Shown here piece after piece: positions 1 through 19,110 of a DNA stretch of 43,895 nucleotides (the first letter of the stretch is position 1; each line of letters starts with the position of its first letter). This DNA comes from Ramlibacter sp. (GTDB taxonomy: Bacteria; Pseudomonadota; Gammaproteobacteria; Burkholderiales; Burkholderiaceae_C). Made by a program: the position numbers and the translations under genes. Location of the stretch: contig NZ_JARXAB010000110.1 in NCBI RefSeq assembly GCF_029866045.1, positions 1-43,895 on the forward strand, written 5' to 3'. Under the pieces are notes generated by a model. The model made no database searches. It was not told where the DNA came from and was given only the letters and a program-made list of their open reading frames with translations.

Positions 1-6
1 AGGAGG
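1..6 (+). promoter_or_regulatory. Ribosome binding site of the first gene
   Basis: A perfect AGGAGG lies 7 nt before the GTG at 14. It supports that GTG as the true start of the crotonase-family gene. A TGA at 9-11 may be the stop of a gene lying outside the window. Confidence 0.75.
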
Positions 7-13
7 CCTGAGC

Positions 14-793: not shown

Positions 794-851
794 GAGCGCC
801 CGGTCTCGCAGGCGACAATCGCGCGACGCTCAGTCGCTGACATGACAGAAC

Positions 852-1580
852 ATGGACGAACCGATTCTTAACATCGAGGAACGCGAGGCGATCAATGCGG
901 GCCGCTGGTTCAGCTCCCTATCGCCCTCGCTACGACATGACATTCTTCGATGTGCCTACGTCAAGCGATACAAGGACGGCGACCTGATCGTCGCCCGGGG
1001 CGACCCGGGCGAGGAGTGGACTGCCTGTGCCAAAGGCGCGGTACGGGTGTCATCGACCTCGATCACCGGCAAGCAGATCACCTTCACCTATGTCGAGCCG
1101 GGGATCTGGTTCGGCGACATCGCCATCTTCGACGGCGACGCCCGCACCCACGACGCCTACGCACATGGGGAAACCACCCTGCTGTGTGTCGCCAAGGCCG
1201 ATTTCCACAAAATTTTGGCTCAGCATGTCGAGCTGTATGCGGCACTGCTGCGCCTGCAGGCGCGGCGCAGCCGGCAACTGTTCGGGCTGATCGAGGATCT
1301 CAACACGCTTCCCCTGCGCGCGCGCCTGGCCAAGCAGTTGCTGCATTTGGTGCGAAGCTACGGCGTCACCAGTCTGTCCGACGGCAGCGAGGTGCGTATC
1401 GGCTTGCAACTGGCGCAGGAAGAACTGGCCCAACTCCTGGGCGCCTCGCGTCAAAGAGTCAACCAGGAGCTCAAGGCAATGGAGCGGGAGAACGCCATCC
1501 GCATCGAGCCCGGCGGCCTGGTGGTTCGGGACCGGCCGGCCCTGCTGCGCATTGTCGAGGCCGACAGCGACCGGGCCTGA
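852..1580 (+). CDS. Crp/Fnr family transcriptional regulator
   Basis: A 242-residue cytoplasmic regulator. Residues about 15-125 form a cyclic-nucleotide-binding-like beta roll (YKDGDLIVARGDPGEEW and EPGIWFGDIAIFDG are the conserved turns). A long helix follows at about 125-160, then a winged helix about 165-225 whose recognition motif is LAQEELAQLLGASRQRVNQELK. There is no N-terminal cysteine cluster, so it is not an oxygen-sensing FNR. The cAMP-pocket arginine of Crp is not obvious and the ligand is unknown. It sits between the crotonase and the phosphotransferase/dehydrogenase genes on the same strand, so local control of this acyl-CoA module is a fair inference. The gene starts at an ATG 58 nt after the previous stop. 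Confidence 0.9.
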   Translation: MDEPILNIEEREAINAGRWFSSLSPSLRHDILRCAYVKRYKDGDLIVARGDPGEEWTACAKGAVRVSSTSITGKQITFTYVEPGIWFGDIAIFDGDARTHDAYAHGETTLLCVAKADFHKILAQHVELYAALLRLQARRSRQLFGLIEDLNTLPLRARLAKQLLHLVRSYGVTSLSDGSEVRIGLQLAQEELAQLLGASRQRVNQELKAMERENAIRIEPGGLVVRDRPALLRIVEADSDRA

Positions 1581-1644
1581 GTGCCCATCACGGCCGCAGG
1601 CTCGGCAGCGACGTCCCTTTGACACCCGAGAGCGAGCCCCTGCC

Positions 1645-2736
1645 ATGAGCACCGATTTTTCCTCCTTCGAGGGCACCCGACCGGTCGCAGACAAGCATGC
1701 GTTCGATACCGCTGCCCTATCGGCCTGGCTCGCTGGTCAACTGCCCGATTTCCAGGGCCCGCTCACGGTCGAAATGTTCAAGGGCGGGCAGTCCAACCCC
1801 ACCTACAAGCTCATCACGCCTGGCCGGTCCTATGTGATGCGGGCCAAGCCTGGCCCGGTTGCCAAGCTGCTGCCCTCTGCCCACGCGATCGAACGGGAGT
1901 TCAAGGTCATGCGGGGCCTGGCCGGCACCGACGTTCCGGTGCCGGAGATGCTGTGCCTGTGCGAAGACGAGTCCATCATTGGCCGCGCCTTCTACCTGAT
2001 GGAGTTCAAGCAAGGCCGGGTGCTGTGGGACCAGTCTCTGCCCGCCATGACGCCCTCCGAGCGCGGCGCGATTTACGACGAGATGAACCGTGTGATTGCC
2101 GCCCTGCACACGGTGGATGTATCCGCCCGCGGCCTGTCGGACTACGGCAGGCCAGGTAGCTACTTCGAGCGGCAAATTGGGCGCTGGACCAAGCAGTACC
2201 TGGCTTCGGTGACCGAGCCCATCGCCGAAATGAACCGCCTGATCGATTGGCTGCCGGCCCAGATGCCTACCACCGCCCGGGACGAATCCTGCGTGTCGAT
2301 CGTGCATGGCGACTTCCGGCTGGACAACCTGATCTTTCACCCGACCGAGCCGCGGGTCATCGCGGTGCTCGATTGGGAGCTGTCGACCCTGGGTCACCCA
2401 CTGGCCGACTTCAGCTACCACTGCATGTCCTGGCACATCCCGCCCGGGCAGTTCCGTGGGATCGGCGGCCTGGACCTGCCGGCCTTGGGCATTCCTTCGG
2501 AGGCCGACTACATCCGCCGCTGGTGCGAACGCACCCGCATCGCCACACCCGAAGGGCTGGCCCAGGACTGGAACTTTTACTTGGCCTACAACCTGTTCCG
2601 CCTGGCAGCGATCCTCCAGGGCATCGCCAAGCGGGCACTGGACGGCACCGCCTCCAGCGCACAAGCGGGCAGCGCCGGCGCCGGCGCTCGGGGCCTGGCC
2701 GAATTAGCCTGGGCCTTTGCCCAACGTGCGCATTGA
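1645..2736 (+). CDS. APH-family phosphotransferase (acyl-CoA dehydrogenase-associated)
   Basis: A 363-residue protein of the aminoglycoside phosphotransferase/choline kinase fold. The nucleotide-binding loop is [10 protein letters not shown] (about 45-54). The Brenner motif HGDFRLDN places the catalytic Asp at residue 223 and Asn at 228, and the metal-binding LDWE follows with Asp243. The ATG at 1645 is chosen because similarity to the family begins shortly after it; the reading frame stays open upstream without a better start. It lies directly before an acyl-CoA dehydrogenase, the arrangement fused in mammalian ACAD10/11 and present as lvaA/lvaC in levulinate-degrading Pseudomonas. There the kinase phosphorylates the 4-hydroxyl of a hydroxyacyl-CoA. 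A similar role on a hydroxyacyl-CoA is inferred; antibiotic modification is unlikely in this context. Confidence 0.85.
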
Positions 2737-2800
2737 CGACCCGAGTACGTCCCTCAAAACACGCCCTCCCCTCACAGACCACCACCCCAGCGAGACCACC

Positions 2801-4075
2801 ATGGACTTCCAATACTCCCAGCGCACACAGGATCTGCAAGCCCGCCTGATCCAGTTCATGGAGGACCACATCTACCCCTCGGAAAAGATCTTCGACGAGC
2901 AACTCGCAGCCCAGACGGCTGCCGGGAAGCGCTGGTCGCCAATCCCCGTCATCGAGGAACTCAAGCAAAAGGCCCAGCGCGCCGGCCTGTGGAACCTCTG
3001 GTTGCCGGCGGATACCGCCGCCATTGCCGGGGTGGAAGGTGCGGGCCTCACCAACCAGGAGTACGCGCCCCTGGCCGAGACCATGGGCCGTGTGCCCTGG
3101 GCGTCGGAGGTCTTCAACTGCAGCGCGCCAGACACCGGCAACATGGAGACCATCGCACGCTACGGCACGCCCGAGCAACGCCAGCGCTGGCTGCTCCCCC
3201 TCTTGCGCGGTGAAATCCGCTCGGCCATCGTGATGACCGAGCCCGAGGTGGCCTCGTCTGACGCCACCAACATCTGCACCCGCATTGAGCGCCAGGGCGA
3301 TGACTACGTGATCAACGGCCACAAGTGGTGGATTTCTGGCGCGCTCGACCCGCGCTGCGCGATCTTCATCCTCATGGGCAAGACCGATCCCGATGCGCCC
3401 AAGCACTCGCAGCAAAGCATGATCCTGGTGCCTGCCACTACCCCCGGCATCCGCATCGTGCGGCCACTGCCGGTGATGGGCTACGACGACGCGCCGCACG
3501 GGCACGCCGAGATGTACTTCGAGAACGTGCGCGTTCCGGCCGAGAACATCCTGCTCGGCGAAGGACGCGGCTTCGAGATCGCCCAGGGTCGCCTGGGCCC
3601 CGGCCGCATCCACCACTGCATGCGCCTGATCGGCCTGGCCGAGCGCGCCTTAGAGTACATGTGCAAGCGGGTGATCTCCCGCGTGGCCTTCGGCAAGCCG
3701 ATCGCCCACCAGACAGTGACCCAGGAGCGAATCGCAGAGGCCCGCTGCCGCATCGAGATGGCGCGCCTGCTAACGCTCAAGACGGCCTGGATGATGGACG
3801 TCGCCGGCAACAAAACCGCCAAGAGCGAGATCGCCATGATCAAGGTGGTCGCGCCGACCATGGCCTGCCAGGTCATCGACTGGGCCATTCAGGCCCACGG
3901 CGGCGGCGGTATGAGCGACGACTTCCCGCTGGCCTACGCCTACGTGGCGGCGCGCGCCCTGCGATTTGCCGACGGCCCGGACGAGGTGCACCGCAATGCC
4001 ATCGCCAAGTGGGAGTTGGGTCGCTGGGGCAGCGTCGGCCGCCAGGAACCCGTCCCTGTCACCCGCGGCGGCTGA
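2801..4075 (+). CDS. Acyl-CoA dehydrogenase (ACAD10/11-like)
   Basis: A 424-residue FAD-dependent acyl-CoA dehydrogenase with the full three-domain layout: an N-terminal helical domain (about 1-135), a central beta domain carrying [16 protein letters not shown] and [13 protein letters not shown], and a C-terminal helical domain ([28 protein letters not shown]). The segment [11 protein letters not shown] near the C terminus is characteristic of the ACAD10/11-type branch. The ATG at 2801 fits the usual N terminus. It takes two hydrogens from an acyl-CoA and passes electrons to ETF in the cytoplasm. Pairing with the upstream APH-type kinase suggests it acts on a 4-phospho- or other substituted acyl-CoA; this is inferred from the gene pair, and the exact substrate is not visible. 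Confidence 0.92.
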
Positions 4076-6868: not shown

Positions 6869-9034
6869 ATGCAAGCTCCACCCGTGCTCGAGAACGAACC
6901 CCAGCGGCTGCACCGCCTGCAGCAACTGGGCATGCTGGATACGGGGGCTGAGGCGCTTCTTGACGCCTTCACCGAGCTGGCCGCCGCCATCACCGGAATG
7001 CCGATTGCCTTGATCACCCTGGTTGACCGGAACAGGCAGTGGTTCAAATCGGCGGTAGGACTGCCGCAAGGCAGCCAGACACCGCGGGCGATCTCGTTCT
7101 GCGGCCATGCGATCGCCGGCGAGGGTTTGTTCGAGGTCGAGGATGCCCGGCTTGACCCCCGCTTTGCCGACAACCCGCTGGTCACCGGCAGCCCCCTTGT
7201 CACGCATTACGCCGGCGCGCCCTTGGTCATGCCGAGCGGCGAACGCATCGGGACGCTGTGCGTCATCGGCGACCGGCCCGGCCGGCTGGACGAGCGCGCA
7301 CGCCAGCACCTGATCAAAATGGCCCAGAACGTGGTGCGCGTGCTGCTGCTGCGCGAGAACGAGCGCAGCCTCGAACAAGGACTGAAGGTCGAACGCGCGC
7401 TGCGGGAGAGCGAAGCGCGCTGGCACGCGATCACCGAGTTGCTGCCCCAAATCATCTGGTCGGCAAATGCCCAGGGCGAGCAGGAGGAGTTCAACCAGCG
7501 ATGGCTGGACTTCACCGGAGAAAGCGCCAGTGGCCGCCCGGGGGCCTGGATGGCTCGGGTCCATGGCGACGATCAGGAGAATCTGCGCAAGGTCTGGGCG
7601 CACCACCTGAAGAGTGGCCGGCCCTTCGAGCAAGAATTCCGACTGTGGCACCACAGCGGCGGCTTCCACTGGATCCTGGCCCGCGCCCTGCCGATGCGCG
7701 ACGACAGCGGCCGCATCGTTCGCTGGATCGCCACCCTCACAGACATACAGACGCAGAAGCAGGCCCAGCTAGACCTGATAGAGATCAACCGGCAGAAAGA
7801 CGAGTTCCTGGCCATGCTGGCCCATGAATTGCGCAACCCGCTCGCGCCCGTCAGTACCGCCGCGCAGCTCCTGCAGCTCAGCGCAGACGACCCGCAGCGG
7901 GTTCGCAAGACCAGCGAGCTGATCGCACGGCAAGTGAGGCATATGACTGAACTGGTGAACAACCTGCTGGACGTCTCCCGGGTCACCCGGGGTCTGGTGC
8001 GGATCAGCCAGGAGCGGGTGGATTTGCGCCAAGTGCTCCACGATGCACTCGAACAGACCCGGCCCCAGATCGAAGCTCGCCACCACCACCTGGAGCCGCC
8101 GGAAACACCCGCCCCGCTCACAGTCATCGGCGACTCGGTCCGCCTGGTGCAGGTGCTGGCGAACCTGCTGGGCAATGCTGCCAAGTACACCCCTGAGGGC
8201 GGGCAGCTGAAGGTCAAGATGGAGATCTGCGGTGAGCGAGTGTCCATTGAGGTCAGCGACAACGGCATCGGCATTGACGCCAAGTTGCTCCCCCATGTGT
8301 TCGACCTCTTCACCCAGGCCGAGCGCATGCCGGACCGCGCCCAGGGCGGCCTGGGCGTCGGGCTGGCCCTGGTGCGCAGCTTGGTGGAGTTGCATGGCGG
8401 CACCATCCAGGCCCACAGCGACGGTCCGGGCACGGGCAGCACCTTCACTGTGTACCTGCCTCTCGCAGAGGAGGCAGGGAACCGTGAACCCCCGCTGGGC
8501 GGCGAGACCCCAGTCGGGGTGTTGGCCTCGAAGGACTCATCGGTGCCCACGCCACCTTCTGCGGTCTACGCACCAGCAGCTGCGCAGCCGCCCCCTTTGG
8601 AGCCCGGGATCCTCTCTCAGCCGCTGGCCCCGGATCAACCCCAAGTGAAAACGCGTACTGGCCTGGCCGTGATGGTGGTCGACGACAACGCAGACGCAGC
8701 CGATCTGATGGGCATCTGGCTGGAGTCTCAGGGCCACGAGGTGCGGGTATGCCTGGACCCGCTGGAGGCACTGGCCGCCGCGCATGTCAGGCCAGCCAAG
8801 GTCTACGTACTCGACATTGGCCTGCCGGGCATGGACGGCAACAGCCTGGCGCGGCGCTTGCGCGAGGACCCGCGTAACCGGGACGCCACCCTGATCGCCC
8901 TCACCGGCTACGGGCAGGCGCAGGACATCTTGCAATCCAAGGAAGCTGGGTTTGACCAGCACTTTGTGAAGCCGGCCGACCCCAGCCGGCTGGCGGCGGT
9001 GATCGACAGCCTGCCGCGGCCTGGTGTGTCTTGA
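6869..9034 (+). CDS. Hybrid sensor histidine kinase (GAF-PAS-HisKA-HATPase-REC)
   Basis: A 721-residue soluble signalling kinase with no transmembrane helix. The domains in order are a GAF domain (about 20-165), a PAS domain with PAC extension (about 182-300), a HisKA dimerisation helix with the phospho-accepting His319 in LAHELRNPLAP, a HATPase domain (N-box LLGNAAKYTP, DNGIGID, GGLGVGLALVRSL; about 425-545), a Pro/Ala-rich linker, and a C-terminal receiver (about 595-715) with Asp649 in VLDIGLPG and Lys in FVKP. It probably senses a cytoplasmic cue through GAF/PAS and passes phosphate within itself, then to an unidentified partner. No response regulator with an output domain lies nearby, so it is an orphan. 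The nearest possible target operon (10287-17626) has its own HxlR regulator. Confidence 0.93.
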   Translation: MQAPPVLENEPQRLHRLQQLGMLDTGAEALLDAFTELAAAITGMPIALITLVDRNRQWFKSAVGLPQGSQTPRAISFCGHAIAGEGLFEVEDARLDPRFADNPLVTGSPLVTHYAGAPLVMPSGERIGTLCVIGDRPGRLDERARQHLIKMAQNVVRVLLLRENERSLEQGLKVERALRESEARWHAITELLPQIIWSANAQGEQEEFNQRWLDFTGESASGRPGAWMARVHGDDQENLRKVWAHHLKSGRPFEQEFRLWHHSGGFHWILARALPMRDDSGRIVRWIATLTDIQTQKQAQLDLIEINRQKDEFLAMLAHELRNPLAPVSTAAQLLQLSADDPQRVRKTSELIARQVRHMTELVNNLLDVSRVTRGLVRISQERVDLRQVLHDALEQTRPQIEARHHHLEPPETPAPLTVIGDSVRLVQVLANLLGNAAKYTPEGGQLKVKMEICGERVSIEVSDNGIGIDAKLLPHVFDLFTQAERMPDRAQGGLGVGLALVRSLVELHGGTIQAHSDGPGTGSTFTVYLPLAEEAGNREPPLGGETPVGVLASKDSSVPTPPSAVYAPAAAQPPPLEPGILSQPLAPDQPQVKTRTGLAVMVVDDNADAADLMGIWLESQGHEVRVCLDPLEALAAAHVRPAKVYVLDIGLPGMDGNSLARRLREDPRNRDATLIALTGYGQAQDILQSKEAGFDQHFVKPADPSRLAAVIDSLPRPGVS

Positions 9035-9126: not shown

Positions 9127-10152
9127 TCAGTCGAAGCGCAGTTTCGAACGCTCCAGAGCCTGCTGGCAGTGAGCACACTGCCAACGCAGGCGAAAGGCCT
9201 GGCCGCAGCGCAGGTGACGGATCGTCATCGGTGGCTGTCCCTGCCACAGCCAACGGTCTCCCCAGCGAATGATTTCAAGTGTGATCGGGAACATCGCGAC
9301 TGCGGCACTGGTGAGGCGGTATTCGCTGCGCGAGCCTGCATAGGCACGGCTACGGAGCAATCCAACAGCCTGCAATTCCTGCAGCCGGCGCGTGAGGGGG
9401 CCGGCCCCGATCCCGGTGGCTTCACTGAAGTCGGTAAAGGTACGCGCGCCTTGAAGCGCAGCGGCCATGACGCTGGAGTTCCATCGGTCGCCGTAGACCC
9501 GCATCAAGGTCGGCAAGTCGTCACGGCGTGCACTGTGGGATTGTCGGAAGCGCCGTTGGGTGTCTCCCGCAGGCGCTGAATCGGTCAAAGGCCCACTGGT
9601 AGGCGTCACGCTCGTGATTTCACCGCGGGTCTCGAAAGCCGTCACGACTTCGCCACAACAGTCGCAAACCGGCCGTGGATCGGCAACTTCACCACAGTCG
9701 ATATGCACCGGCTCCTCACGGGGCCGGTCGTACGGGATGGGTGGACGTACGAGACCGGTTCCCCAACGCGACTCCCATTGCCACATCGCCAGCAGCACAC
9801 GCCAAAAATCCAAGCCGCAATCGGTCAGCCAGTACTGGGCATGCCGCCCTGGAGACTCCGCCTTCCGGATGAGTCCTGCTCCGCACAGCCGCTCCAAGCG
9901 GTCGGCGAGTACCGCCCGGGAAACCCCGGTTTCCTTGATCAGGCCGCTGAAACGGCGCTGGCCCCGGAAGAGGGATCGCAACAACCGCAGGACCCATGCA
10001 TCCCCCAGCAAATCGAGGGCCAGCGCCGCGCCACTGGCCTGCAACTGGCGCCGCTGGCCCTGTGGAGGGGGCGAGCTGGCGCTTGGGTGTTCGCCACTTG
10101 ACGAGGCCGCGGGGTGACCGCCAGCATCCGAGGCAGAGGTTCGCCCTATCAC
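9127..10152 (-). CDS. Tandem HxlR-family regulator with duplicated Cys/His tail
   Basis: A 341-residue DNA-binding protein made of two HxlR winged-helix units. Unit 1 (about 38-122) contains LLGDAWVLRLLRSLFRGQRRF and GLIRKAESPGRHAQYWLT. Unit 2 (about 212-300) contains VYGDRWNSSVMAAALQGARTF and GLLRSRAYAGSRSEYRLT. HxlR proteins are normally a single domain of about 100-150 residues that dimerise, so this is a covalent pseudo-dimer. Each unit is followed by the same pattern, H-X2-C-G-X8-C-X2-C: HIDCGEVADPRPVCDCC after unit 1 and HLRCGQAFRLRWQCAHC after unit 2, suggesting two metal-binding sites. The gene is divergent from the thiolase-to-ligase operon with a 134-nt AT-rich gap, so it is the likely regulator of that operon. 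The effector is unknown. Confidence 0.85.
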   Translation of the reverse strand: MIGRTSASDAGGHPAASSSGEHPSASSPPPQGQRRQLQASGAALALDLLGDAWVLRLLRSLFRGQRRFSGLIKETGVSRAVLADRLERLCGAGLIRKAESPGRHAQYWLTDCGLDFWRVLLAMWQWESRWGTGLVRPPIPYDRPREEPVHIDCGEVADPRPVCDCCGEVVTAFETRGEITSVTPTSGPLTDSAPAGDTQRRFRQSHSARRDDLPTLMRVYGDRWNSSVMAAALQGARTFTDFSEATGIGAGPLTRRLQELQAVGLLRSRAYAGSRSEYRLTSAAVAMFPITLEIIRWGDRWLWQGQPPMTIRHLRCGQAFRLRWQCAHCQQALERSKLRFD

Positions 10153-10286
10153 AATTTTTTTGATCTGCTTATTGGAGTTTACGGGATGGCGTCTGGATAG
10201 TGGGAGAGGATAAATTTGGTCTGTCTATACAAGTAACTGCCTTTCAGTATGAGACTCTGCAGCAGTTCGTTCCGCATGGATTCTTC
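10153..10286. promoter_or_regulatory. Divergent control region between the HxlR regulator and the catabolic operon
   Basis: This gap is clearly more AT-rich than the surrounding genes, with a run of seven T at 10155-10161 and a TATACA hexamer near 10225. It must hold the promoters for both directions and probably the regulator binding sites. No clean -35/-10 pair could be fixed by eye. The reading frame of the thiolase stays open back to 10200, but the extra N-terminal sequence there does not look like a thiolase. Confidence 0.5.
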
Positions 10287-11477
10287 ATGGCCCAGGCTCT
10301 GATCGCAGCCGCATTCCGCACGCCACGCGGCGCCGCCAAGTCCAGCGGTAGCCTGCATGGACTGACACCAGCTGGCTTGCTCGGCAGCCACTTGCGCTCC
10401 GTTCGCGAGCGGGTGGGCTCCGCTTGCGAGGCGGTGGAGGACGCGCTCATTGGGTGTGTGACTCAAACGGGCGAACAAGGCGGCAACGTTGGCAAGGTCG
10501 CCACTCTGCTGGCCGGGTGGAGCCCCTACATGTCTGCGCTGACGATCAATCGGTACTGCGCGTCCGGCTTGAGCGCCGTCAACCTTGCGGCGCTGGAGGC
10601 CCTGCAGGGGGATAGCCTGGTGCTGGCGGGCGGCGTCGAGATGATGTCGCGGGTCCCGATGTTCGGTGATGCAGCTCCCCACTATTCGGACAAGGCCTTG
10701 AGCGAGGTGATCGGCTTCATGCCTCCGCCTTGGACATCAGACCTGGTGGCCACCCGCAACGGATTCAGCCGGGCAGCCTGCGACGAGTACGCGGCGCTAT
10801 CGCAAGCCCGCGCCGCCCAGGCCCGCAGGGAGCGACCCATGCCCTCGATGCTGCCGGTGGTCAATGATGCGGGCGAGGTACTCCTGGCTCAAGACGAGAA
10901 CATTCGCGAGGGAAGCACCGCAGAAAAATTGGCTACGCTCAAGGCCGTCTATGAGGGGGGAGCCCCCGATCTGGATGCCTGGGCGCTGGCGCGTGAACCG
11001 CAGCTAGGCACCGTCGTCCATGTGCACACCGCCGGTAACGCACCCTGCATGGCCGACGGCGCCGCAGCCGTGATCGTGGGCAGTGCAGGTGCGCTCAGCC
11101 GGCACGGGCTGCAACCACGCGCAAGGATTCTGGCCATGGCCGAAGCCTGTGTGCCGCTGGTCCAGACCGGAGCGGTCGATGCCACGCGGCGAGCGCTGTC
11201 CCGGGCCGGGCTCGACGTTGCCGATATCGACCTTTGGGAAGTGCGCGACTCCTTTGCTGCGATCACCTTGCATTACATCCAGACCCTGGGTCTGGACCTG
11301 GCCCGATTCAACGTCAATGGCAGCTCGATCGCCCTGGGGCATCCGATGGGTGCCACCGGGGCCATGCTGGTCAGCTGCCTCCTTGACGAACTAGAGCACC
11401 GCGACCTGCGCCGCGGCATCGTGGCCATCGCGGGTGCAGCCGGCGTCGCCACTGCCGCAGTGATCGAACGCTGCTGA
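10287..11477 (+). CDS. Thiolase-family protein with an altered active site
   Basis: A 396-residue protein with the complete thiolase fold, starting at ATG 10287 (MAQALIAAAFRTPRG, the usual N terminus). The acyl-accepting cysteine is present as Cys91 in NRYCASGLSAVN, and His352 is present in GHPMGATGA. Two other catalytic positions are changed. The NEAF motif reads VRDSF (Arg320 in place of Asn), and the C-terminal CxGGG motif that carries the second catalytic Cys reads AIAGAAG (Ala382). Standard acetyl-CoA acetyltransferases use Cys, His, Cys and Asn, so ordinary thiolytic cleavage or Claisen condensation is uncertain. It may be a specialised acyl transferase or a non-decarboxylating variant. 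It is the first gene of the operon, 23 nt before the oxygenase. Confidence 0.85.
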   Translation: MAQALIAAAFRTPRGAAKSSGSLHGLTPAGLLGSHLRSVRERVGSACEAVEDALIGCVTQTGEQGGNVGKVATLLAGWSPYMSALTINRYCASGLSAVNLAALEALQGDSLVLAGGVEMMSRVPMFGDAAPHYSDKALSEVIGFMPPPWTSDLVATRNGFSRAACDEYAALSQARAAQARRERPMPSMLPVVNDAGEVLLAQDENIREGSTAEKLATLKAVYEGGAPDLDAWALAREPQLGTVVHVHTAGNAPCMADGAAAVIVGSAGALSRHGLQPRARILAMAEACVPLVQTGAVDATRRALSRAGLDVADIDLWEVRDSFAAITLHYIQTLGLDLARFNVNGSSIALGHPMGATGAMLVSCLLDELEHRDLRRGIVAIAGAAGVATAAVIERC

Positions 11478-11500
11478 CCCCCGAACCCTGGAAGCCCTCA

Positions 11501-12985
11501 ATGCTTGAAATTCACGACCGCAAGACGCTCACCTGCCTGGAGGGCGACAACCCCTACCTCAATGGAGCCTGGGAGCCCTGTGCTACCGAGTGGACTGCCA
11601 GCACGCCCACGCTGAAAGTGCTGCAGGGGGAAATACCCAGAGACCTGCAGGGTGTGTACATGCGCAATGGGCACAACCAGGTCCATGCGCCCATCGGCAA
11701 GTACCACCCCTTCGACGGCGACGGCATGGTGCATGCGGCGCACTTCGAGAACGGCCAAATGACTTACCGCAACCGGTGGACTCGCACCACCGGTTTCCTG
11801 GCCGAGGCGGCCGCTGGCCATTCGTTGTGGCCTGGGATCATCGAGCCGCGCAAGGCGGTACGGCGCGGCTGGGGGTCGATCGGCGCGATGAAGGACAACG
11901 CCGGCACCGACATCATCGTGCATGCGGGCAAGGCTATCGTTGCCATGAGCCAATGCAGCGAACCCTACCGGCTTGATCCGATCACGCTCGAGACCCTCGG
12001 CCCGGACGCCGCCTGGTCAAGGGCCCTGGGCGAGCGCGGAATCTGCTCGCATTTCCAGATTGACGAGCATACGGGCGACATGATGTTCTTCAACTACGGT
12101 GAACATGCCCCCTACTTCAACTACGGTGTGGTGAATGCCCGAAACGAGTTGGTGCATTACACGCCGATCGAACTGCCTGGGCCACGCTGGCCGCATGACC
12201 TGGGCATGACCCAGAACTACTGCATCCTCCACGACCTTCCGATGTTCTTTGATCAGGTGGCCCTGACCAAGGGGCAGCACCGGCTGAAATTCCATCGCGA
12301 CGTACCGGCCCGCTTTGGCATCGTTCCCAGGATGGGGCACAACCGTGATGTGCGTTGGTTCGAGGGCCAGCCCTGCTACATCCTGCACCTGTCCAACAGC
12401 TACGAGTTGGGGGATGAGGTGGTGATGGAGGGCTGCATACAGACCAATCCGGTGCCGGATATCAGCGCCTTGCCCAAAGAAGGCTACGAGCGCATGAAAG
12501 CGTTGCTGGACACGCACCTGCAGGAAACCCGTATGCACCGCTGGCGCTTCAATCTGAAGACGGGCCAGACACACGAGGAAGATCTCGACGACGAAGTGAC
12601 CGAGTTCCCCATGGTCAACGGCCGCTACAAGGGGCGACCGAACCGGTACGTCTATACCGCCTACATGGTCCCGGGGTTTTGGCTGCTCGATGGCCTCAAG
12701 AAGTACGACTTGCAGACCGGCCACACCCAAAGCTGGCGCTGCCCACCCGGCTGCTACATCAGCGAGGCGCCCTTTGCGCCCCGTGTCGGCGCCCAAAGCG
12801 AAGATGACGGCTATGTGCTGACATTCATGAACGACGCCACCCACCAACGCGCCGAATGCGTGATCTTTGATGCCAAGGCGATTGATCGGGGGCCTTTGTG
12901 TCGTGTCGCACTGCCTGGCTTCATCCCCTTGGGAGCGCACGCCTACTGGATGCCCCTGACCGACCTGCAGGGCCGCGGCGGATGA
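11501..12985 (+). CDS. Carotenoid oxygenase family protein (carotenoid/stilbene cleavage-like)
   Basis: A 494-residue non-haem Fe(II) dioxygenase of the RPE65/CCD/lignostilbene dioxygenase family. The family cleaves a C=C bond with O2 to give two carbonyls. Four iron-ligand histidines can be assigned in order: His184 (CSHFQIDEHTG), His232 (HDLGMTQNY), His296 (ILHLSNSYE) and His480 (GAHAYWMP). The N-terminal landmarks YMRNG and YHPFDGDGMVH fit the first propeller blades. Length is normal for bacterial members. No signal peptide is present, so it acts in the cytoplasm. The substrate may be a stilbenoid, phenylpropene or apocarotenoid; the neighbouring CoA ligase and hydrolase favour a route where the cleavage product is oxidised or activated to a CoA ester. 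Its stop overlaps the hydrolase start (ATGA). Confidence 0.9.
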   Translation: MLEIHDRKTLTCLEGDNPYLNGAWEPCATEWTASTPTLKVLQGEIPRDLQGVYMRNGHNQVHAPIGKYHPFDGDGMVHAAHFENGQMTYRNRWTRTTGFLAEAAAGHSLWPGIIEPRKAVRRGWGSIGAMKDNAGTDIIVHAGKAIVAMSQCSEPYRLDPITLETLGPDAAWSRALGERGICSHFQIDEHTGDMMFFNYGEHAPYFNYGVVNARNELVHYTPIELPGPRWPHDLGMTQNYCILHDLPMFFDQVALTKGQHRLKFHRDVPARFGIVPRMGHNRDVRWFEGQPCYILHLSNSYELGDEVVMEGCIQTNPVPDISALPKEGYERMKALLDTHLQETRMHRWRFNLKTGQTHEEDLDDEVTEFPMVNGRYKGRPNRYVYTAYMVPGFWLLDGLKKYDLQTGHTQSWRCPPGCYISEAPFAPRVGAQSEDDGYVLTFMNDATHQRAECVIFDAKAIDRGPLCRVALPGFIPLGAHAYWMPLTDLQGRGG

Positions 12986-13797
12986 GTATGCAGACCTGTC
13001 CCGACTTCAGCATCACCCACCCGCAGGGCCAGCCGTCTGGCGTGACCGTGGTCCTGTTGCATGGTGCGTTCGGCGCCAAGGAATACTGGCGCGCACAAAT
13101 CCAAGCCTTGGTCCGCGACGGACACCGGGTCGTGGCGTGGGATGCACCAGGCTACGGCCTCTCGCCGCTGCCGCCAGATTTCAGCATCGACTTCTGCGCC
13201 ACCGCACTCTGCGACTTGTTGCGCCGGGAGGGCGGCGCCTGCAACGTGGTACTGGGGCACAGCATGGGCGGCATGATCGCCCAGCGTGCCTGGGCCTACG
13301 CCCCACAATTGATTCAAGGCTATGTCCTCTCGGCGACCAGCGCAGCGTTCGGAAAGTCGGATGGGGATTGGCAAAGAGAATTCGTGCGGCAGCGGGTCGC
13401 CCCACTAGACGCTGGCCGCACATTGCCGGACCATGCGCCGGGAATGCTGCGCACCATGATGGCAGCCGGCGCTGCGGGGCCCGCCGTCAACCTGTTGATC
13501 GCCACAGTCAGCCTGATGCGGGAAGAAACCTTCCGCGCCGCTGTAGCAGCCATCGCGACCTTTGAAGGCCGCGCCCTGCTGCCGACGATGCACGTGCCGG
13601 TGCTTTGTGTCGCTGGCGAGCTGGACCGAACCGCTCCAGCCGAGGTCATGGCCAAAATGGCGACCAAGTTGCCGCGTGCCCAATTCGTTTCACTCCCGGG
13701 TGTCGGTCATTTTGGCTGGGCCGAGCAACCCGATGCATTCAACCAGCTACTTCTGCAATTCCTGTCCGACCACTTCCCCTCAAGGAGCGCCTCGTGA
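12982..13797 (+). CDS. Alpha/beta hydrolase
   Basis: A 271-residue alpha/beta hydrolase. The oxyanion strand is VVLLHGAFGAKEYW, the nucleophile elbow is GHSMGG with Ser94, the acid is the Asp in CVAGELDRTAP, and the base is the His in PGVGHFGW, so the triad is complete. The start ATG overlaps the oxygenase stop by 4 nt, which implies translational coupling. Members with this form hydrolyse esters, lactones or C-C bonds of ring-cleavage products. In this operon it could act on an ester or lactone of the imported substrate or on an oxygenase product; the choice cannot be made from sequence. Confidence 0.9.
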   Translation: MSMQTCPDFSITHPQGQPSGVTVVLLHGAFGAKEYWRAQIQALVRDGHRVVAWDAPGYGLSPLPPDFSIDFCATALCDLLRREGGACNVVLGHSMGGMIAQRAWAYAPQLIQGYVLSATSAAFGKSDGDWQREFVRQRVAPLDAGRTLPDHAPGMLRTMMAAGAAGPAVNLLIATVSLMREETFRAAVAAIATFEGRALLPTMHVPVLCVAGELDRTAPAEVMAKMATKLPRAQFVSLPGVGHFGWAEQPDAFNQLLLQFLSDHFPSRSAS

Positions 13798-14768
13798 AAG
13801 CAGTTCAATCCAAGCCCTGGGCCCGTGCACTCTCCGCCCTCATCTCGGTTTTCATGGCCACTAGCGCGTTTGCGCAGGCTTACCCCGACAAGCCGATCAC
13901 CCTGATCATTCCTTTCCCTCCCGGCATCGTAGACAGCAATGCCCGAGTACTCGCCACCAAGGCAAGCGCGATTCTGGGTCAGCCCATCGTGGTCAGGAAC
14001 CTCGCTGGAGCGGGTCAGCGAATCGGCACCGACGCTCTGGCCAAGGCCCCCAAGGACGGGTACACCATCGGTGTCGTGACCAATGCGGGGGTGGTGGCCG
14101 GACCCGCTCTGGGCACCGGCATCCCGTATGACCCCATCAAGGACCTGACCTACCTGTCGATGGGATTCGAGTCCCACTACCTGGTCAACACTCACCCGGG
14201 CTCGGGTATCACCAGTCTCAAGCAACTGGTCGACCGCGCGCGCGCAACCCCTGACAAGCTGCGCTTTGGATCAACCGGCATCGGTACCGGCTTCCATGTG
14301 TCGACCGAGCAGTTCCTGCGGGCGGCCAAGATCCAACTTCAGCACATCCCCTACAAGGGCGAGAGCCCACTGCTGGTCGATCTCACCGGTGGCCAGGTGG
14401 AATTGGCCTTTTCATCGGTATCCAGCCGCCAGATGGCCGAGGCCGGCAAGCTGGTCATGCTGGCATATACCGGCGAGACCCGCTCTCCCCTGATGCCCAA
14501 CGTGCCCACTGCCAAGGAGATGGGAATTCCCCATGTGAGCTCTGGCTGGCTGGGCTTTGCTGCCCCTGCTGGGATCCCTGCTGCGGTACGCGAGAAGCTG
14601 GTGAATGCCTTTGCGACCGCCGCGCGAGACGCCGATATCGGAGCCAACTTTGTCAAAGCCGGCATGGAGCCGCGCACACTGAGCGGGGACGCTTTCGCCG
14701 CCCGCGTGAAGCGAGAGGTTGACGAGCTCAAGGAACTGAACAAGGAACTCAAAATCGTCCTGGAATAA
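13794..14768 (+). CDS. Bug-family (TctC-like) tripartite tricarboxylate transporter substrate-binding protein
   Basis: A 324-residue periplasmic solute receptor. It begins at a GTG overlapping the hydrolase stop by 4 nt and carries a Sec signal peptide ending near ATSAFAQA (about 22-29). The mature protein shows Bug landmarks: YPDKPITLIIPFPPGIVDSNAR, the ligand-loop region near ATKASAILGQPIVVRNLAGAGQRIGTDALAKAPKDGYTIG (read in parts), IQLQHIPYKGESPLLVDLTGGQVELAF and VPTAKEMGIP. In Burkholderiales such receptors bind small carboxylates, amides or aromatics, and many are encoded away from TctA/TctB membrane subunits, as here. Its place inside the operon suggests it captures the operon's substrate or a related acid. 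Confidence 0.92.
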   Translation: MKAVQSKPWARALSALISVFMATSAFAQAYPDKPITLIIPFPPGIVDSNARVLATKASAILGQPIVVRNLAGAGQRIGTDALAKAPKDGYTIGVVTNAGVVAGPALGTGIPYDPIKDLTYLSMGFESHYLVNTHPGSGITSLKQLVDRARATPDKLRFGSTGIGTGFHVSTEQFLRAAKIQLQHIPYKGESPLLVDLTGGQVELAFSSVSSRQMAEAGKLVMLAYTGETRSPLMPNVPTAKEMGIPHVSSGWLGFAAPAGIPAAVREKLVNAFATAARDADIGANFVKAGMEPRTLSGDAFAARVKREVDELKELNKELKIVLE

Positions 14769-14774
14769 GCGCGC

Positions 14775-15806
14775 GTGACGGCCTCTCTCGCTCGCCCGCC
14801 CCCCTCCCGGCTTCGGGAAGAAGTGGCCCAGGGCCTGGCCCTGCCCCTGGTGCTGGCGCCGATGTTCCTGGTGACATCGGTCGAAATGATGCTGGCATCC
14901 ATGGCTTCGGGGGCAGTAGCGGCCATGCCCACGCTGAATGCGCGCAGCCCGGACATCTGGGATGAATGGGCAGGCCGGCTCGCAGCGGAGCACGCAACCC
15001 TGGGACGGCGGGTCCCCTGGGCAGCCAACTTGGTGGTCCACGGCAGCAATCCGCGTCTGGCCGCCGATCTGGCGGTGTGTGTGCGCCATCGAGTTCCCTG
15101 GGTGATCACGGCCCTGGGAAACCCGCGTGCCGTGGTCGAGACGGTCCATGGCTATGGCGGGCTTGTATTTGCAGACGTCAACACCCCCCAACTGGCCCGA
15201 AAGGCGGCCGGCGCCGGGGTGGACGGCCTGGTCCTGATTTGCGCGGGGGCCGGCGGCCATACGGGGCCGATGACACCCACGGCCTTTGTCGCCGCTGTTC
15301 GGGAATTCTTCGATGGTCCCCTGATCGTCGGTGGCGGGCTCGTTGACGGCAATGGCATCCGCGCGGTCCAGGCCATGGGAGCGGACCTTGCTTACCTGGG
15401 TACCCGCTTCATCGCCACACGGGAGAGCGCCGCGGTAGACGCCTACAAGCGCATGGTCGTCGACAGCGACTTCACCGACATCATCTGCACCAATGCCTTC
15501 ACCGGGGCCTGGGCCAACAAGCTGCGACCCAGCCTGGTGGCGGCCGGCCTGGATCCGGACAAGCTGGTGGCCCGCGATCGGTTTGATTTGAACCGGCCCG
15601 AAGAAGAGGTCAAGGCTTGGAAGGACCTGTGGTCTGCCGGGCATGGCGTTGGCAGCGTCCACGAGATCGAAACGGTGGCCGAGGTCGTCGAGACGCTGGG
15701 GCGAGAGTACGTCCAATGCTTGGCGCGCCTCGACCAAGATCCTTGGGCAGCGCGCTGGCGGGCCGCCGCTATCGCGGCTCAAGCAGAGCAGGCGAGCAAC
15801 ACGTGA
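14775..15806 (+). CDS. Nitronate monooxygenase / 2-nitropropane dioxygenase-like flavoprotein
   Basis: A 343-residue FMN-dependent TIM-barrel protein starting at GTG 14775, 6 nt after the Bug gene. Family marks are the N-terminal PLVLAPMFLVTSVEMMLAS, the strand GVDGLVLICAGAGGHTG, and the phosphate-binding GGGLVDGNGIRAVQAMGADLAYLGTRF. NMO-family members oxidise alkyl nitronates, but many homologues in catabolic clusters have other oxidative or reductive roles (for example FabK-like enoyl reduction). The catalytic His of class I NMO appears to be in GAGGHTG. In this operon a flavin-linked oxidation, reduction or isomerisation of a CoA ester is equally possible. Its stop overlaps the ligase start. 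Confidence 0.85.
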   Translation: MTASLARPPPSRLREEVAQGLALPLVLAPMFLVTSVEMMLASMASGAVAAMPTLNARSPDIWDEWAGRLAAEHATLGRRVPWAANLVVHGSNPRLAADLAVCVRHRVPWVITALGNPRAVVETVHGYGGLVFADVNTPQLARKAAGAGVDGLVLICAGAGGHTGPMTPTAFVAAVREFFDGPLIVGGGLVDGNGIRAVQAMGADLAYLGTRFIATRESAAVDAYKRMVVDSDFTDIICTNAFTGAWANKLRPSLVAAGLDPDKLVARDRFDLNRPEEEVKAWKDLWSAGHGVGSVHEIETVAEVVETLGREYVQCLARLDQDPWAARWRAAAIAAQAEQASNT

Positions 15807-17626
15807 GCAAGCCACAGCAGCCCAAGCCAGCGAACAGCGCCGAGGCAAAGGGAGCCGACGACACCGAGCGGGGCACCACCGCCCGAGATCGCCAGCGCCA
15901 CTATCGCGAGCAAGGCTGGTGGGGCGAGACACGCCTTCAGGATCTTTTTGACCACTGGGTAAAGACGCGGCCGCAAGCTTGCAGTGTGGTCGACCCGCCA
16001 AACCGCGACCGCTTTACCAGCGGAGCCGCATGCCGTCTCAGCTGGCTGGAGATCGACGCCAAAGTCCAAGCGCTGTGCGGCGTCATGCTGGACAGGGGCT
16101 TGGCATGTGGCGACGTGGTGTTGTTGCAGTTCCCGTCCGTCCATGAGTTTCTGGTGGCCTACCTGGCCTGCTTCCGCCTGGGACTGGTGGCATCGCCGGT
16201 CCCCCTCGCCTACCGCGCCCATGAGCTGAACCACATCGTTCCGCAGGGCCAGGTAAAAGCTCTGCTCGGCATGAACCGTGTCGCGACCTTCGACCACGGG
16301 CAGTTGTTGGTGCAGGTCGCCCGTCAGGCTGGCGGTCAACAGGTCATGCTCTGGGGCGACAATCTCCCCGAGGGCGCTGTGAATCTGGGCACCGAGATGG
16401 ACCGCCAGGCGAAAGACCCGACCCTGCGCGTACGGGTCCATCAAGCAACGGAAAAAAATCCGGTGACCGCGGATGATGTCTGCCTGATCCTGTGGACGTC
16501 GGGTACCGAGGCCCTGCCCAAGCCCGTGCCGAGGACACACAACCACTGCCTGGTCTCGCGCAAGTTGATGACGGAGCCCGCAGCTCTGGAAATCGGCGAA
16601 TGCATGCTCTCGCCCCGCCTGCTCAATACGATGGGGGGATTCGCGGGCACGGTCGTGACCTGGCTGGACTGCGCGGCTCAGGTCGTCTTGCACCAACCCC
16701 TGGATCTGCCGGTGTTCCTGCAGCAAATTGCCAACGAGCGCCCAGTCTTTACCAGCGGCCCGCCGGCCCTGTTGCAAACCCTGATGGCAGACCCTGAGGC
16801 GATGCGCCTGCTGGCCAACAGCCCCTTGCGCTGCATCTCCAGCGGCTCGGCCGCCCTCCCCGAGGAAGTCATGCTGCGGTTCAAACAGGAATGCGGCATC
16901 GACATCCTTAACTTTTATGGCTCCAGCGAGGGCGGATCCCTGTCTGCAACGCCGCGGGACATGGACGACCTGGGCGCAAGGGCGCGCTATTTCGCCCGCT
17001 TCGGCGCGGCCCACTGCACGTCCACGCTCAGCACAGCTCGCTATGTAGAGACGCGCCTGATTGATCCGGAAACAGAGGATACGATTGAGCAACCCGGCAT
17101 GGTGGGCGAGCTTTGCTTCGACGGCCCTACGATGTTCACCGGCTACCTGAACATGCCCGAAGCCACTCGGGCGGCATTCACCCGGCGAGGAGAGTACCGA
17201 TCGGGCGACCTGTTCGAGATCGCAGGTGATCGCGGTCAGTGGCTCCGGTTCGTGGGTCGGCGCAAGGAAATCATCGTCCGTGGCGGGATGAACATCTCCG
17301 CCCTGGAGGTCGAGGGCCTGCTGGCCCAGGTACCGGGCGTTCGGGAGGTGGCGGCGGTGGGCCTGCCCGACGAGCGGCTGGGAGAGATCGTCTGCGCGGT
17401 CGTGGTGCTCGCGCCGGGTACGGCCCTGGAACTGCCAGCGCTGACACGCTACCTGCAGGAAACGCTGTCGGTGGCGATCTACAAGTGCCCAGAGGCTTTG
17501 CTACGGGTGGAAAGCCTGCCACGCAACCCGGCCGGCAAGGTGATCAAGTCGGCCCTGCGTCAACAGGTGCAAGAAGCTGCTTCTAGCAGCGATGGTTCGT
17601 TGGAGCGGCGCGGATCCAGAAGCTAA
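15803..17626 (+). CDS. AMP-dependent acyl/aryl-CoA ligase (DhbE/EntE-like)
   Basis: A 607-residue adenylate-forming enzyme. The GTG start at 15803 overlaps the previous stop by 4 nt. The first 30 residues are polar and unstructured. The phosphate-binding motif reads WTSGTEALPKPVPRTHN (from residue 231); the PRTHN ending is like 2,3-dihydroxybenzoate-AMP ligases, and the loop has Glu-Ala where most enzymes have Thr-Gly. Further motifs are NFYGSSEGGS, YRSGDLFE, the hinge GRRKEIIVRGGMNISALEVE, and the catalytic Lys in NPAGKVIKSALR (about 577). It would activate a carboxylic acid, perhaps aromatic, to the adenylate and CoA thioester. It is the last gene of the six-gene operon. An inverted repeat without a T run follows. 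Confidence 0.9.
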   Translation: MSKPQQPKPANSAEAKGADDTERGTTARDRQRHYREQGWWGETRLQDLFDHWVKTRPQACSVVDPPNRDRFTSGAACRLSWLEIDAKVQALCGVMLDRGLACGDVVLLQFPSVHEFLVAYLACFRLGLVASPVPLAYRAHELNHIVPQGQVKALLGMNRVATFDHGQLLVQVARQAGGQQVMLWGDNLPEGAVNLGTEMDRQAKDPTLRVRVHQATEKNPVTADDVCLILWTSGTEALPKPVPRTHNHCLVSRKLMTEPAALEIGECMLSPRLLNTMGGFAGTVVTWLDCAAQVVLHQPLDLPVFLQQIANERPVFTSGPPALLQTLMADPEAMRLLANSPLRCISSGSAALPEEVMLRFKQECGIDILNFYGSSEGGSLSATPRDMDDLGARARYFARFGAAHCTSTLSTARYVETRLIDPETEDTIEQPGMVGELCFDGPTMFTGYLNMPEATRAAFTRRGEYRSGDLFEIAGDRGQWLRFVGRRKEIIVRGGMNISALEVEGLLAQVPGVREVAAVGLPDERLGEIVCAVVVLAPGTALELPALTRYLQETLSVAIYKCPEALLRVESLPRNPAGKVIKSALRQQVQEAASSSDGSLERRGSRS

Positions 17627-18111: not shown

Positions 18112-19110
18112 ATGCCACACATGCCCACCCGACGCGACTGCCTGAGCCTGCTGGCGCTGCCCGCACTGGGTGCCGCCTTGCTGCCCGCCCGCACCCAGGC
18201 GCAAGCGCCGGCGCCGGTCTACACCCAGCCCCTGCGCATCGTCCTGCCCTTCGCTCCCGGAGGCCCGACCGACATGATGGCCCGGGCCATCTCCAAGAGC
18301 ATGAGCCAGACGCTGGGCCAGCCCGTGGTGATCGACAACAAGCCTGGCGGGGGTGGCCTGGTCGCTTTCGCTGACGTCGTCCGCGCGCCGGCCGACGGCT
18401 ACACCCTGGCCTTCCCCTCCATCCTGGCGGTGACCAACCCGGCGCTGATGCCCAAGTATCCCTACGAGACCCTGCGTGACTTCACGCCAGTGACGGTGGT
18501 GGGCTTCATCCCCCACGTGCTGGCTGTACGCACCGACCATCCAGCCAAGAGCTTGGCCGACTTGGTGGCCACCGCCCGCGCCAAGCCCGATTCGGTCACC
18601 TATGCATCCTCGGGCAACGGCACCTCGGCGCACCTGGCAGCCGCGCTGCTCGCTTCCGAGGCCAAAGTCTCGATGCTGCACGTGCCCTACAAGGGCGCAG
18701 GTCCCGCCCTGACAGACCTGCTCTCAGGTCAAGTGGAGTGCATGTTCCTGGACACCAACTCTGCGATACCCCAGATCCGCGCCGGCAAGCTGCGCGCATT
18801 GGCGGCCGCGCCGCGGCGACGCATCGCCCTCCTGCCCGACGTACCCACGGTTGCCGAACAGGGCTATCCCAATTTCGACGTCCATGGCTGGTACGGGCTG
18901 TTGGCCCGCGCCGGTACGCCCGAGCCGATGGTCAACTTGCTGCACAACGCGGTTCGCATCGCCCTGGCGACACCCGAAGTGCGCGAGCAATTCCGCGGCG
19001 CGGCAGTCGACGCGGGCGGCATGCCACCTGCCGAATACCGCGAAATCATCCGCAACGATCTGGTCAAATGGAAAACGCTGGTCGATCGACTACAAATCAA
19101 ACTGGACTGA
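18112..19110 (+). CDS. Bug-family (TctC-like) substrate-binding protein
   Basis: A 332-residue periplasmic solute receptor. The leader has a twin-arginine-like start (TRRDCLSLLALPALGAALLPARTQAQA), so Tat export is possible though Sec cannot be excluded. Mature landmarks are LRIVLPFAPGGPTDMMAR, NKPGGGGLVAF, ADGYTLAFPS, VPYKGAGPALTDLLSGQVECMF and LPDVPTVAEQGYP. AGGAGA at 18101-18106 supports ATG 18112; an in-frame ATG at 18121 is an alternative. No TctA/TctB partner lies in the window. It is followed after 13 nt by a D-2-hydroxyacid dehydrogenase, so the ligand may be a 2-hydroxy or 2-oxo acid; that link is inferred from adjacency only. Confidence 0.93.
   Translation: MPHMPTRRDCLSLLALPALGAALLPARTQAQAPAPVYTQPLRIVLPFAPGGPTDMMARAISKSMSQTLGQPVVIDNKPGGGGLVAFADVVRAPADGYTLAFPSILAVTNPALMPKYPYETLRDFTPVTVVGFIPHVLAVRTDHPAKSLADLVATARAKPDSVTYASSGNGTSAHLAAALLASEAKVSMLHVPYKGAGPALTDLLSGQVECMFLDTNSAIPQIRAGKLRALAAAPRRRIALLPDVPTVAEQGYPNFDVHGWYGLLARAGTPEPMVNLLHNAVRIALATPEVREQFRGAAVDAGGMPPAEYREIIRNDLVKWKTLVDRLQIKLD

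Follow-up and report, generated by a model that had tools for sequence, protein, structure and literature searches.

A conserved gene cluster joining a carotenoid cleavage-type oxygenase to a variant thiolase in Ramlibacter sp.

The DNA examined here, referred to as the window, is a stretch of 43,895 nucleotides from Ramlibacter sp. (contig NZ_JARXAB010000110.1). Six genes on its forward strand encode a variant thiolase (10287..11477), a carotenoid cleavage-type oxygenase (CCO; 11501..12985), an alpha/beta hydrolase (12982..13797), a Bug/TctC periplasmic solute receptor (13794..14768), an NMO/FabK-like flavoprotein (14775..15806) and an AMP-forming acyl-CoA ligase (15803..17626), and this operon is a conserved module whose role is probably catabolic. 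Its core, which consists of the thiolase, the CCO and the hydrolase, usually together with the Bug receptor and a divergently encoded HxlR-type regulator, is conserved in the group of closest CCO relatives, called clade I below. Among the new findings, the consistent alteration of the thiolase stands out most. We consider it an even call that the operon serves the catabolism of an unsaturated compound without a phenol group, with an isoprenoid acid or an apocarotenoid-like molecule as the most likely candidates. The substrate and one reaction of the operon are probably undescribed.

The six genes are separated, in order, by a gap of 23 nt, two overlaps of 4 nt, a gap of 6 nt and another overlap of 4 nt, and the open reading frame coordinates thus agree with the three overlaps and two gaps listed in an initial annotation of this DNA. 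All six proteins passed the curated Pfam cut-offs, each in its named family.

The CCO was used as the query on genome contigs, and the best 80 of 96 matches gave 79 loci, or 80 with the window. Seven window proteins were placed on these loci by tblastn; further neighbor families, each named from one Pfam-tested member per cluster, were added afterwards. Clade I was defined as the 29 of the 80 loci, window included, with a CCO at least 66% identical. The same 29 rows grouped together in the CCO tree (SH-aLRT 100), which held 106 of the 107 CCO rows after those shorter than 400 aa were dropped, plus two references on very long branches; one tree row labelled 'thiolase' (L016_5672) is a second CCO near a clade I thiolase. 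Genes were counted as co-occurring if they lay within 7 kb of the CCO. Totals for all 29 clade I loci take in loci with cut flanks, and a full-flank subset was therefore defined, made up of the 11 loci, window included, that have 5 kb or more of sequence to either side.

In the full-flank loci the thiolase and the hydrolase were present without exception (11/11 each), the Bug receptor in 10 and the regulator in 9; over all of clade I the counts were 24/29, 26/29, 24/29 and 20/29, respectively. In the recurring blocks the CCO was 67-91% and the thiolase 56-89% identical to that of the window, and this recurrence is more than chance. Co-occurrence of the six genes held for the core, but all six were found in only 6 of the 11 full-flank loci (the window, L001, L002, L013, L016 and L026), and the gene order of the window was kept in five, since L026, from Cupriavidus laharis LMG 23992, is arranged as two divergent groups.

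The ligase and the flavoprotein were more variable (7/11 each; 10/29 and 8/29 in all clade I loci), as was a class III CoA-transferase (5/11 and 10/29). The seven full-flank loci with the ligase were the same seven that had the NMO-like gene, while the other four carried the CoA-transferase; L013 had a more distant CoA-transferase besides the ligase and NMO-like genes. In other words, a ligase or a CoA-transferase was present in 11 of 11. L004 and L005, which have a short left flank, contained the ligase with no NMO-like gene within 7 kb. Neighboring CCOs in the tree differed in this module (L013 versus L012 and L014, L016 versus L020): the flavoprotein and ligase genes were found in L013 and L016, and the CoA-transferase in the closely placed L014 and L020. 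Accordingly, there seems to have been more than one exchange between the two modules, with the caveat that single metagenome bins may be misassembled. The interchange supports the earlier proposal that an acid product is activated to its CoA ester.

The wider family consisted of 51 loci with a CCO 50-60% identical, in which the hydrolase was found in 39, the Bug receptor in 30, the NMO-like gene in 9, the ligase in 4 and the thiolase in 2. The Bug count outside clade I is weak evidence, since Bug genes abound. A second, different alpha/beta hydrolase, ABH_B, was present in 43 of the 51 loci and in only three of the 29 in clade I (L019, L022 and L025). L019 and L022 were without the thiolase, and the fourth thiolase-less locus of clade I, L027, had a gene of the ABH_B cluster farther out. 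This near-exclusive occurrence suggests a shared function for the variant thiolase and ABH_B; the pattern follows the CCO tree closely, with four changes, and therefore rests on few events. One or both kinds of alpha/beta hydrolase lay within 7 kb of the CCO in 72 of all 80 loci, making an alpha/beta hydrolase its most constant neighbor.

A variant thiolase beside the clade I oxygenases

The thiolase matched Pfam Thiolase_N and Thiolase_C above the curated cut-offs, and its nearest solved relative was the FadA beta-chain of the fatty-acid beta-oxidation complex (Rv0859, PDB 4b3h). It shares with this protein and other degradative thiolases the fold family, the nucleophile Cys and the His of the GHP and HVHT motifs, but differs from the mycobacterial FadA in having RDSF in place of NEAF and Ala in place of the Cys of the CxG motif. 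In the thiolase of Zoogloea, Asn316 of NEAF is reported to help form the oxyanion hole and Cys378 to be the base (PMC3406046).

Among 31 aligned thiolase rows, the same change was found in all 24 thiolases within 7 kb of clade I CCOs: neither the Asn of NEAF nor the base Cys of CxG was present in any of them, with Arg in place of the Asn and Ala or Pro in place of the Cys. Twenty-three of these directly adjoin the CCO and one (L026) is 4.9 kb away. The nucleophile Cys was kept in 23 of 23 readable rows (one was cut) and the GHP His in all 24. Five paralogs from the multi-CCO islands described below, 51-53% identical to the window thiolase, had NE(S/G)F and the Cys, and two thiolases of the wider family (33-34% identical) likewise had the standard residues. 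The initial annotation had rightly named the gene a thiolase variant, and the variation has turned out to be weightier than was stated there.

A thiolase-led search covered 399 genomes of the family and 399 of the order, two sets that overlap, with up to four candidates scored per genome at E ≤ 1e-100. It returned 18 places, of which 12 had the standard type, five had RDSF and one (G186) was cut at a contig end before the motif. The five RDSF places, all adjacent to a CCO, were in the window's own genome and in G262, G382, G569 and G604. Three of them coincide with loci already in the set (G382 with L021, G569 with L016 and G604 with L020), leaving G262 as the only new case.

The thiolase dN/dS was 0.05-0.20 in four pairs, compared with 0.04-0.24 for the CCO; dS in these comparisons was 0.7-1.4, so the ratios are rough. 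These values indicate that the RDSF thiolase is a kept protein under purifying selection rather than a decaying one. Loss of the Asn and the base Cys, together with retention of the nucleophile Cys and the GHP His, suggests that acyl transfer proceeds with no acetyl-CoA enolate involved. Tentatively, the protein could be a new C-C-cleaving acyltransferase acting on a product of the CCO pathway, such as a beta-keto acid or beta-diketone instead of a beta-ketoacyl-CoA, and would then be the CoA-based counterpart of the hydrolysis by ABH_B in sister loci. If so, the operon would convert an isoprenoid alkene to acyl-CoAs by a new aerobic route. A thiolase whose catalytic residues are replaced so consistently, and in association with a single CCO clade, is a clear starting point for finding a new reaction.

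The oxygenase and its partner proteins

The CCO belongs to the carotenoid cleavage oxygenase superfamily (421 bits against RPE65, PF03055, cut-off 27). Its iron ligands, assigned by alignment as H184, H232, H296 and H480, were conserved at 94-100% over 109 rows, including two references. The residue alignment was made from matches of at least 330 residues and contained 107 homologs, window included, which are not all independent (L032 is the same as L033).

Enzymes of this superfamily that cleave phenolic alkenes have a characteristic Tyr/Lys pair. In LSD4, Tyr101 and Lys134 are reported to bind the stilbene 4-hydroxyl (PMC8191317), and in the isoeugenol-cleaving MapADO the equivalent Y136 and K169 are described as needed for activity, which mutation cuts strongly (PMC12308385). 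The corresponding positions in LsdA were found from the published numbering, which is shifted by one relative to the chain. When aligned with LsdA and the plant oxygenase CCD1, the window CCO had Ile113 and Ser150 at the two places. Across the 107 homologs the Tyr101 place was occupied by Ile (52), Leu (39), Met (15) or Val (1) and the Lys134 place by Ser (83), Tyr (22) or Gly (2); in other words, neither the Tyr nor the Lys was found in any of the 107. The absence of the pair excludes the known phenolic binding mode for the CCO group, and a stilbene or isoeugenol substrate was rejected as a candidate on these active-site residues.

The Osmanthus fragrans CCD1 (PDB 9luz, 9m6z, 7vud) was the best match in both sequence and fold, and has the four His as well as Ile and Ser at the stilbene Tyr/Lys places. 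It differs in being only about 29% identical and in being a plant enzyme, outside any bacterial CoA-linked operon. LsdA, LSD4, NOV1 and MapADO share with the window CCO the fold, the iron site and the equivalent of Phe59 (Phe in 96 of 107 homologs), but not the phenol-binding pair. A profile of 43 CCO homologs scored CCD1 at 348 bits, LsdA at 265, VP14 at 240 and the Synechocystis ACO at 227. Two NCBIfam models were not matched at cut-off level: the lignostilbene model NF053778 gave 233.9 bits (cut-off 800) and NF052295, for 8'-apo-carotenoid 13,14-cleaving dioxygenase, gave 222.4 bits (cut-off 675). The AlphaFold model of the CCO had a mean pLDDT of 92, and among the 50 Foldseek matches listed all were CCO-family entries. 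Comparison of folds was also tried as an arbiter between carotenoid and stilbene types and dropped as not discriminating. Phenolic stilbenes and isoeugenol are therefore unlikely substrates, judging from the active site, and an isoprenoid, apocarotenoid-like alkene is favoured as a better fit. The stilbenoid and phenylpropene substrates suggested in the initial annotation thus lost ground, while the apocarotenoid it also mentioned remains a candidate, strengthened by the match to CCD1 at the Tyr/Lys places.

The partner proteins also matched their families. The hydrolase, above the cut-off for Abhydrolase_6, had a conserved triad (S94, D215 and H243; 65 rows aligned). The flavoprotein scored 82 bits against NMO (PF03060, cut-off 28), and H162 of its GGH motif was conserved in at least 97% of 27 rows. 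The ligase scored 175 bits against AMP-binding (PF00501), with T232-S233-G234 and K579 conserved in at least 97% of 23 rows. We take these to be the catalytic residues of their families, and on the strength of the conserved motifs all three proteins look active. The receptor scored 184.5 bits against TctC (PF03401, cut-off 27), and substrate capture by it is plausible; neither TctA nor TctB is encoded among the six genes of the operon, so these do not make up a complete tripartite tricarboxylate transporter.

The ligase had been called EntE-like. Its best PDB match was indeed a DHB-AMP ligase, but with NCBIfam models it scored higher against medium-chain acyl-CoA ligase (276 bits) and cyclohexanecarboxylate-CoA ligase (219) than against the two EntE-type DHB-AMP ligase models (182 and 177 bits, well short of the cut-offs of 783 and 724). 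All of these scores were below cut-off, and the label is a loose one. The receptor, flavoprotein and ligase resemble known members of their families in their Pfam matches; they differ in that their combination with a CCO in a single operon was described in none of the open-literature results covered.

A proposed pathway and its alternatives

In the proposed pathway, the Bug receptor would help to import a carboxylate, and the four-His iron CCO would cleave a C=C bond to give carbonyl products, a reaction class predicted from its family and intact iron ligands. The hydrolase may then act on a product or on an ester, lactone or dicarbonyl intermediate. An acid product would be converted to its CoA ester by the ligase, or by the class III CoA-transferase in sister loci, as the replacement of one by the other suggests, and the NMO/FabK-like flavoprotein may reduce or desaturate the acyl-CoA. 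Finally, the variant thiolase would cleave a C-C bond by acyl transfer to CoA, with a leaving group other than the usual acetyl-CoA enolate. The double-HxlR regulator presumably controls the operon. Uptake, C=C cleavage and acid activation had already been put forward; this model remains reasonable and its activation step gained support from the interchange of ligase and CoA-transferase, but its stilbene branch did not hold.

Five other explanations were considered. The thiolase may catalyze normal thiolysis at an ordinary beta-oxidation end despite its changed residues, which would call for no unusual chemistry. Retention of the nucleophilic Cys and GHP His and the relationship to FadA are consistent with this, but the loss of both the oxyanion-hole Asn and the base Cys in every clade I case, when paralogs at 51-53% identity keep both, makes it unlikely, if worth keeping in view. 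Ring opening resembling meta-cleavage, in which the CCO would cleave a ring C=C to a single dicarbonyl and the hydrolase would cut the C-C bond, as an extradiol dioxygenase and C-C hydrolase do, would account for the constancy of the hydrolase beside the CCO. The hydrolase also matched PcaD- and HsaD/BphD-type NCBIfam models; these matches were far below cut-off and generic, we know of no CCO that cleaves an endocyclic bond, and we regard this explanation as improbable. For phenolic stilbene or isoeugenol-type phenylpropene catabolism, the CCO would be a relative of lignostilbene dioxygenase and the ligase would activate the resulting aromatic acid. The shared superfamily, the position of LsdA as the next nearest solved family after CCD1 and the presence of DHB-AMP ligases among the nearest solved ligases are in its favor. 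Against the missing Tyr/Lys pair, which is reported to bind the 4-hydroxyl in LSD4 and to be needed by MapADO (PMC8191317, PMC12308385), and the low score with the lignostilbene model, it is highly improbable.

CCO products are often signals, and the genes could serve to alter a signal or to detoxify a compound, and not to support growth on a carbon source; an uptake receptor, two kinds of CoA activation and a thiolase, with genes for aldehyde dehydrogenase (ALDH) and ABC or TonB transporters in relatives, point to catabolism instead, and we give this explanation little credence. Catabolism of abscisic acid (ABA) or a similar apocarotenoid acid, with the CCO forming dehydrovomifoliol by cleavage of the terminal C=C in the side chain of ABA and the other genes breaking down the ring compound, is chemically apt, as the substrate is a carboxylate with an isoprenoid C=C and CoA steps would follow. 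Rhodococcus P1Y is reported to form dehydrovomifoliol, by a mechanism that the source gives as unknown, with double-bond cleavage named as an option (PMC7996341). A Rhodococcus locus in our set (L074) holds a CCO family member with hydrolases. Bacteria named as ABA degraders include Rhodococcus P1Y and AX7B and Novosphingobium P6W. However, nearly all clade I records are metagenome bins of unknown diet, and the six CCO paralogs in the window's genome suggest more than one substrate. ABA is one possible setting and not evidence, and this specific version is distinctly improbable.

Several points weigh against catabolism of an isoprenoid or apocarotenoid-like compound by the operon as proposed. 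Support for it comes from sequence, structure prediction and gene context, and the order of the steps is inferred. The absence of the Tyr/Lys pair rules out the known phenol-binding mode, not all aromatic alkenes, and the fold hardly separates CCD1 (TM 0.84) from LsdA and NOV1 (0.83-0.84). The window's genome (3.85 Mb) has 142 TctC/Bug-family matches, two of them in the window (13794-14768 and 18112-19110), so that a nearby Bug gene means little unless orthologous, and in 6 of the 24 clade I loci with a Bug gene the receptor was less than 60% identical. Standard-type thiolases also lie near CCOs of other clades (L091 and L103), and therefore the residue change, not neighborhood alone, marks clade I. 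Identity is only 43-44% for the ligases of L005 and L016, and their dN/dS is near 0.55, so that ligases may have been acquired separately. Oxygenase genes occurring routinely without the other five had been named in advance as a result that would count against the operon as a unit, and this was half observed: the thiolase and hydrolase stay with the CCO in clade I, whereas the flavoprotein and ligase are absent from 4 of the 11 full-flank loci and the set is not kept outside the clade. As had been pointed out, genes for the hydratase and hydroxyacyl-CoA dehydrogenase steps are also not among the operon genes.

The statement that no pathway with this exact set had been described agreed with the open literature, in which neither a CCO-thiolase-ligase pathway nor a bacterial route of apocarotenoid catabolism was found, the large result sets being partly covered; with the same partial coverage, no gene set for bacterial ABA breakdown was found. 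Lignin-dimer pathways, including the eight stilbene-type CCOs of SYK-6, have been tabulated, and the window's gene set does not appear in the available part of that source (PMC12997858). Bacterial conversion of ABA to dehydrovomifoliol is reported with the enzymes unknown (PMC7996341), and the genome of a Rhodococcus strain growing on ABA was announced without pathway genes (PMC12509608). The loci described here thus outline a conserved modular bacterial pathway around a carotenoid-type oxygenase for which no described counterpart was found, and yield a set of related oxygenases that can be assayed and that probably act on a substrate other than the known phenolic alkenes. If the substrate is an apocarotenoid acid, the loci would supply genes with which a major class of compounds from plants and algae is degraded.

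Genomic surroundings

The divergent regulator gene (9127..10152, reverse strand) probably belongs to the same unit as the six genes. Two stretches of the protein match Pfam HxlR, and each domain is followed by a Cys-rich, zinc-ribbon-like motif, all in one chain. The divergent intergenic region (10153..10286, 42.5% G+C) is a likely operator/promoter; no match to a sigma-70-type consensus was found in it, with zero promoter-like sites in a promoter scan. A terminator scan gave 7 terminator-like sites, compared with 5.9 expected. A hybrid histidine kinase with GAF/PAS domains is encoded directly upstream of the regulator gene (6869-9034), and a relative is found upstream in L001 and L002.

The first part of the window (1-4075) contains in a row an enoyl-CoA hydratase, a Crp-type regulator, an APH-type kinase and an acyl-CoA dehydrogenase. 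The hydratase (14-793) and dehydrogenase (2717-4075) were considered as the source of the missing beta-oxidation steps and rejected, because the thiolase is over 6 kb away and both an MFS gene on the opposite strand and the hybrid kinase gene intervene. A tRNA-Arg/tRNA-Pro pair is located downstream of the operon in the window, L001 and L002; tRNA genes were not found in the nine other loci scanned. The G+C content of the operon region does not stand out, and the idea of a genomic island was dropped on these two grounds.

CCO genes were rare in the family: 17 of 200 same-family genomes, the window's own included, held one at E ≤ 1e-100. The window's genome has six, five beyond that of the operon, along with 28 AMP-binding, 18 Thiolase_N and 10 NMO matches. 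Several related genomes contain islands with two to four CCOs, which between them hold ligases, ABH_B, Bug, NMO, two further thiolase types, ALDH, a lipocalin-like protein and branched-chain-type ABC transporter genes. A contig of 21.9 kb in the window's genome (C166; L086 and L087) resembles these islands, with three more CCOs, two ligases, ABH_B, Bug, NMO, two thiolase types (among them a NEAF-type paralog), ALDH and a lipocalin-like gene. CCO genes in L041, L087 and L093 are accompanied by a lipocalin-like gene (Lipocalin_5 in L041:4094-4759) that pairs with one for an aldehyde dehydrogenase-like protein; the lipocalin-like protein is a possible carrier for a hydrophobic substrate.

Loci from Bacillota had neighbors of other kinds. 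In five of them a protein matching a beta-keto acid cleavage enzyme is encoded near the CCO (the L068 copy was tested with Pfam), a hint that related pathways may involve a beta-keto acid. An unusual neighbor, an ORF of a Cpn60_TCP1-type cluster, is found no more than about 4 kb from the CCO in L036, L042, L059, L068 and L071; the tested member (L042:4926-6545) matches Cpn60_TCP1 with an E value of 3e-79, and in four of these five loci the chaperonin-like gene is joined by TctA and Bug genes.

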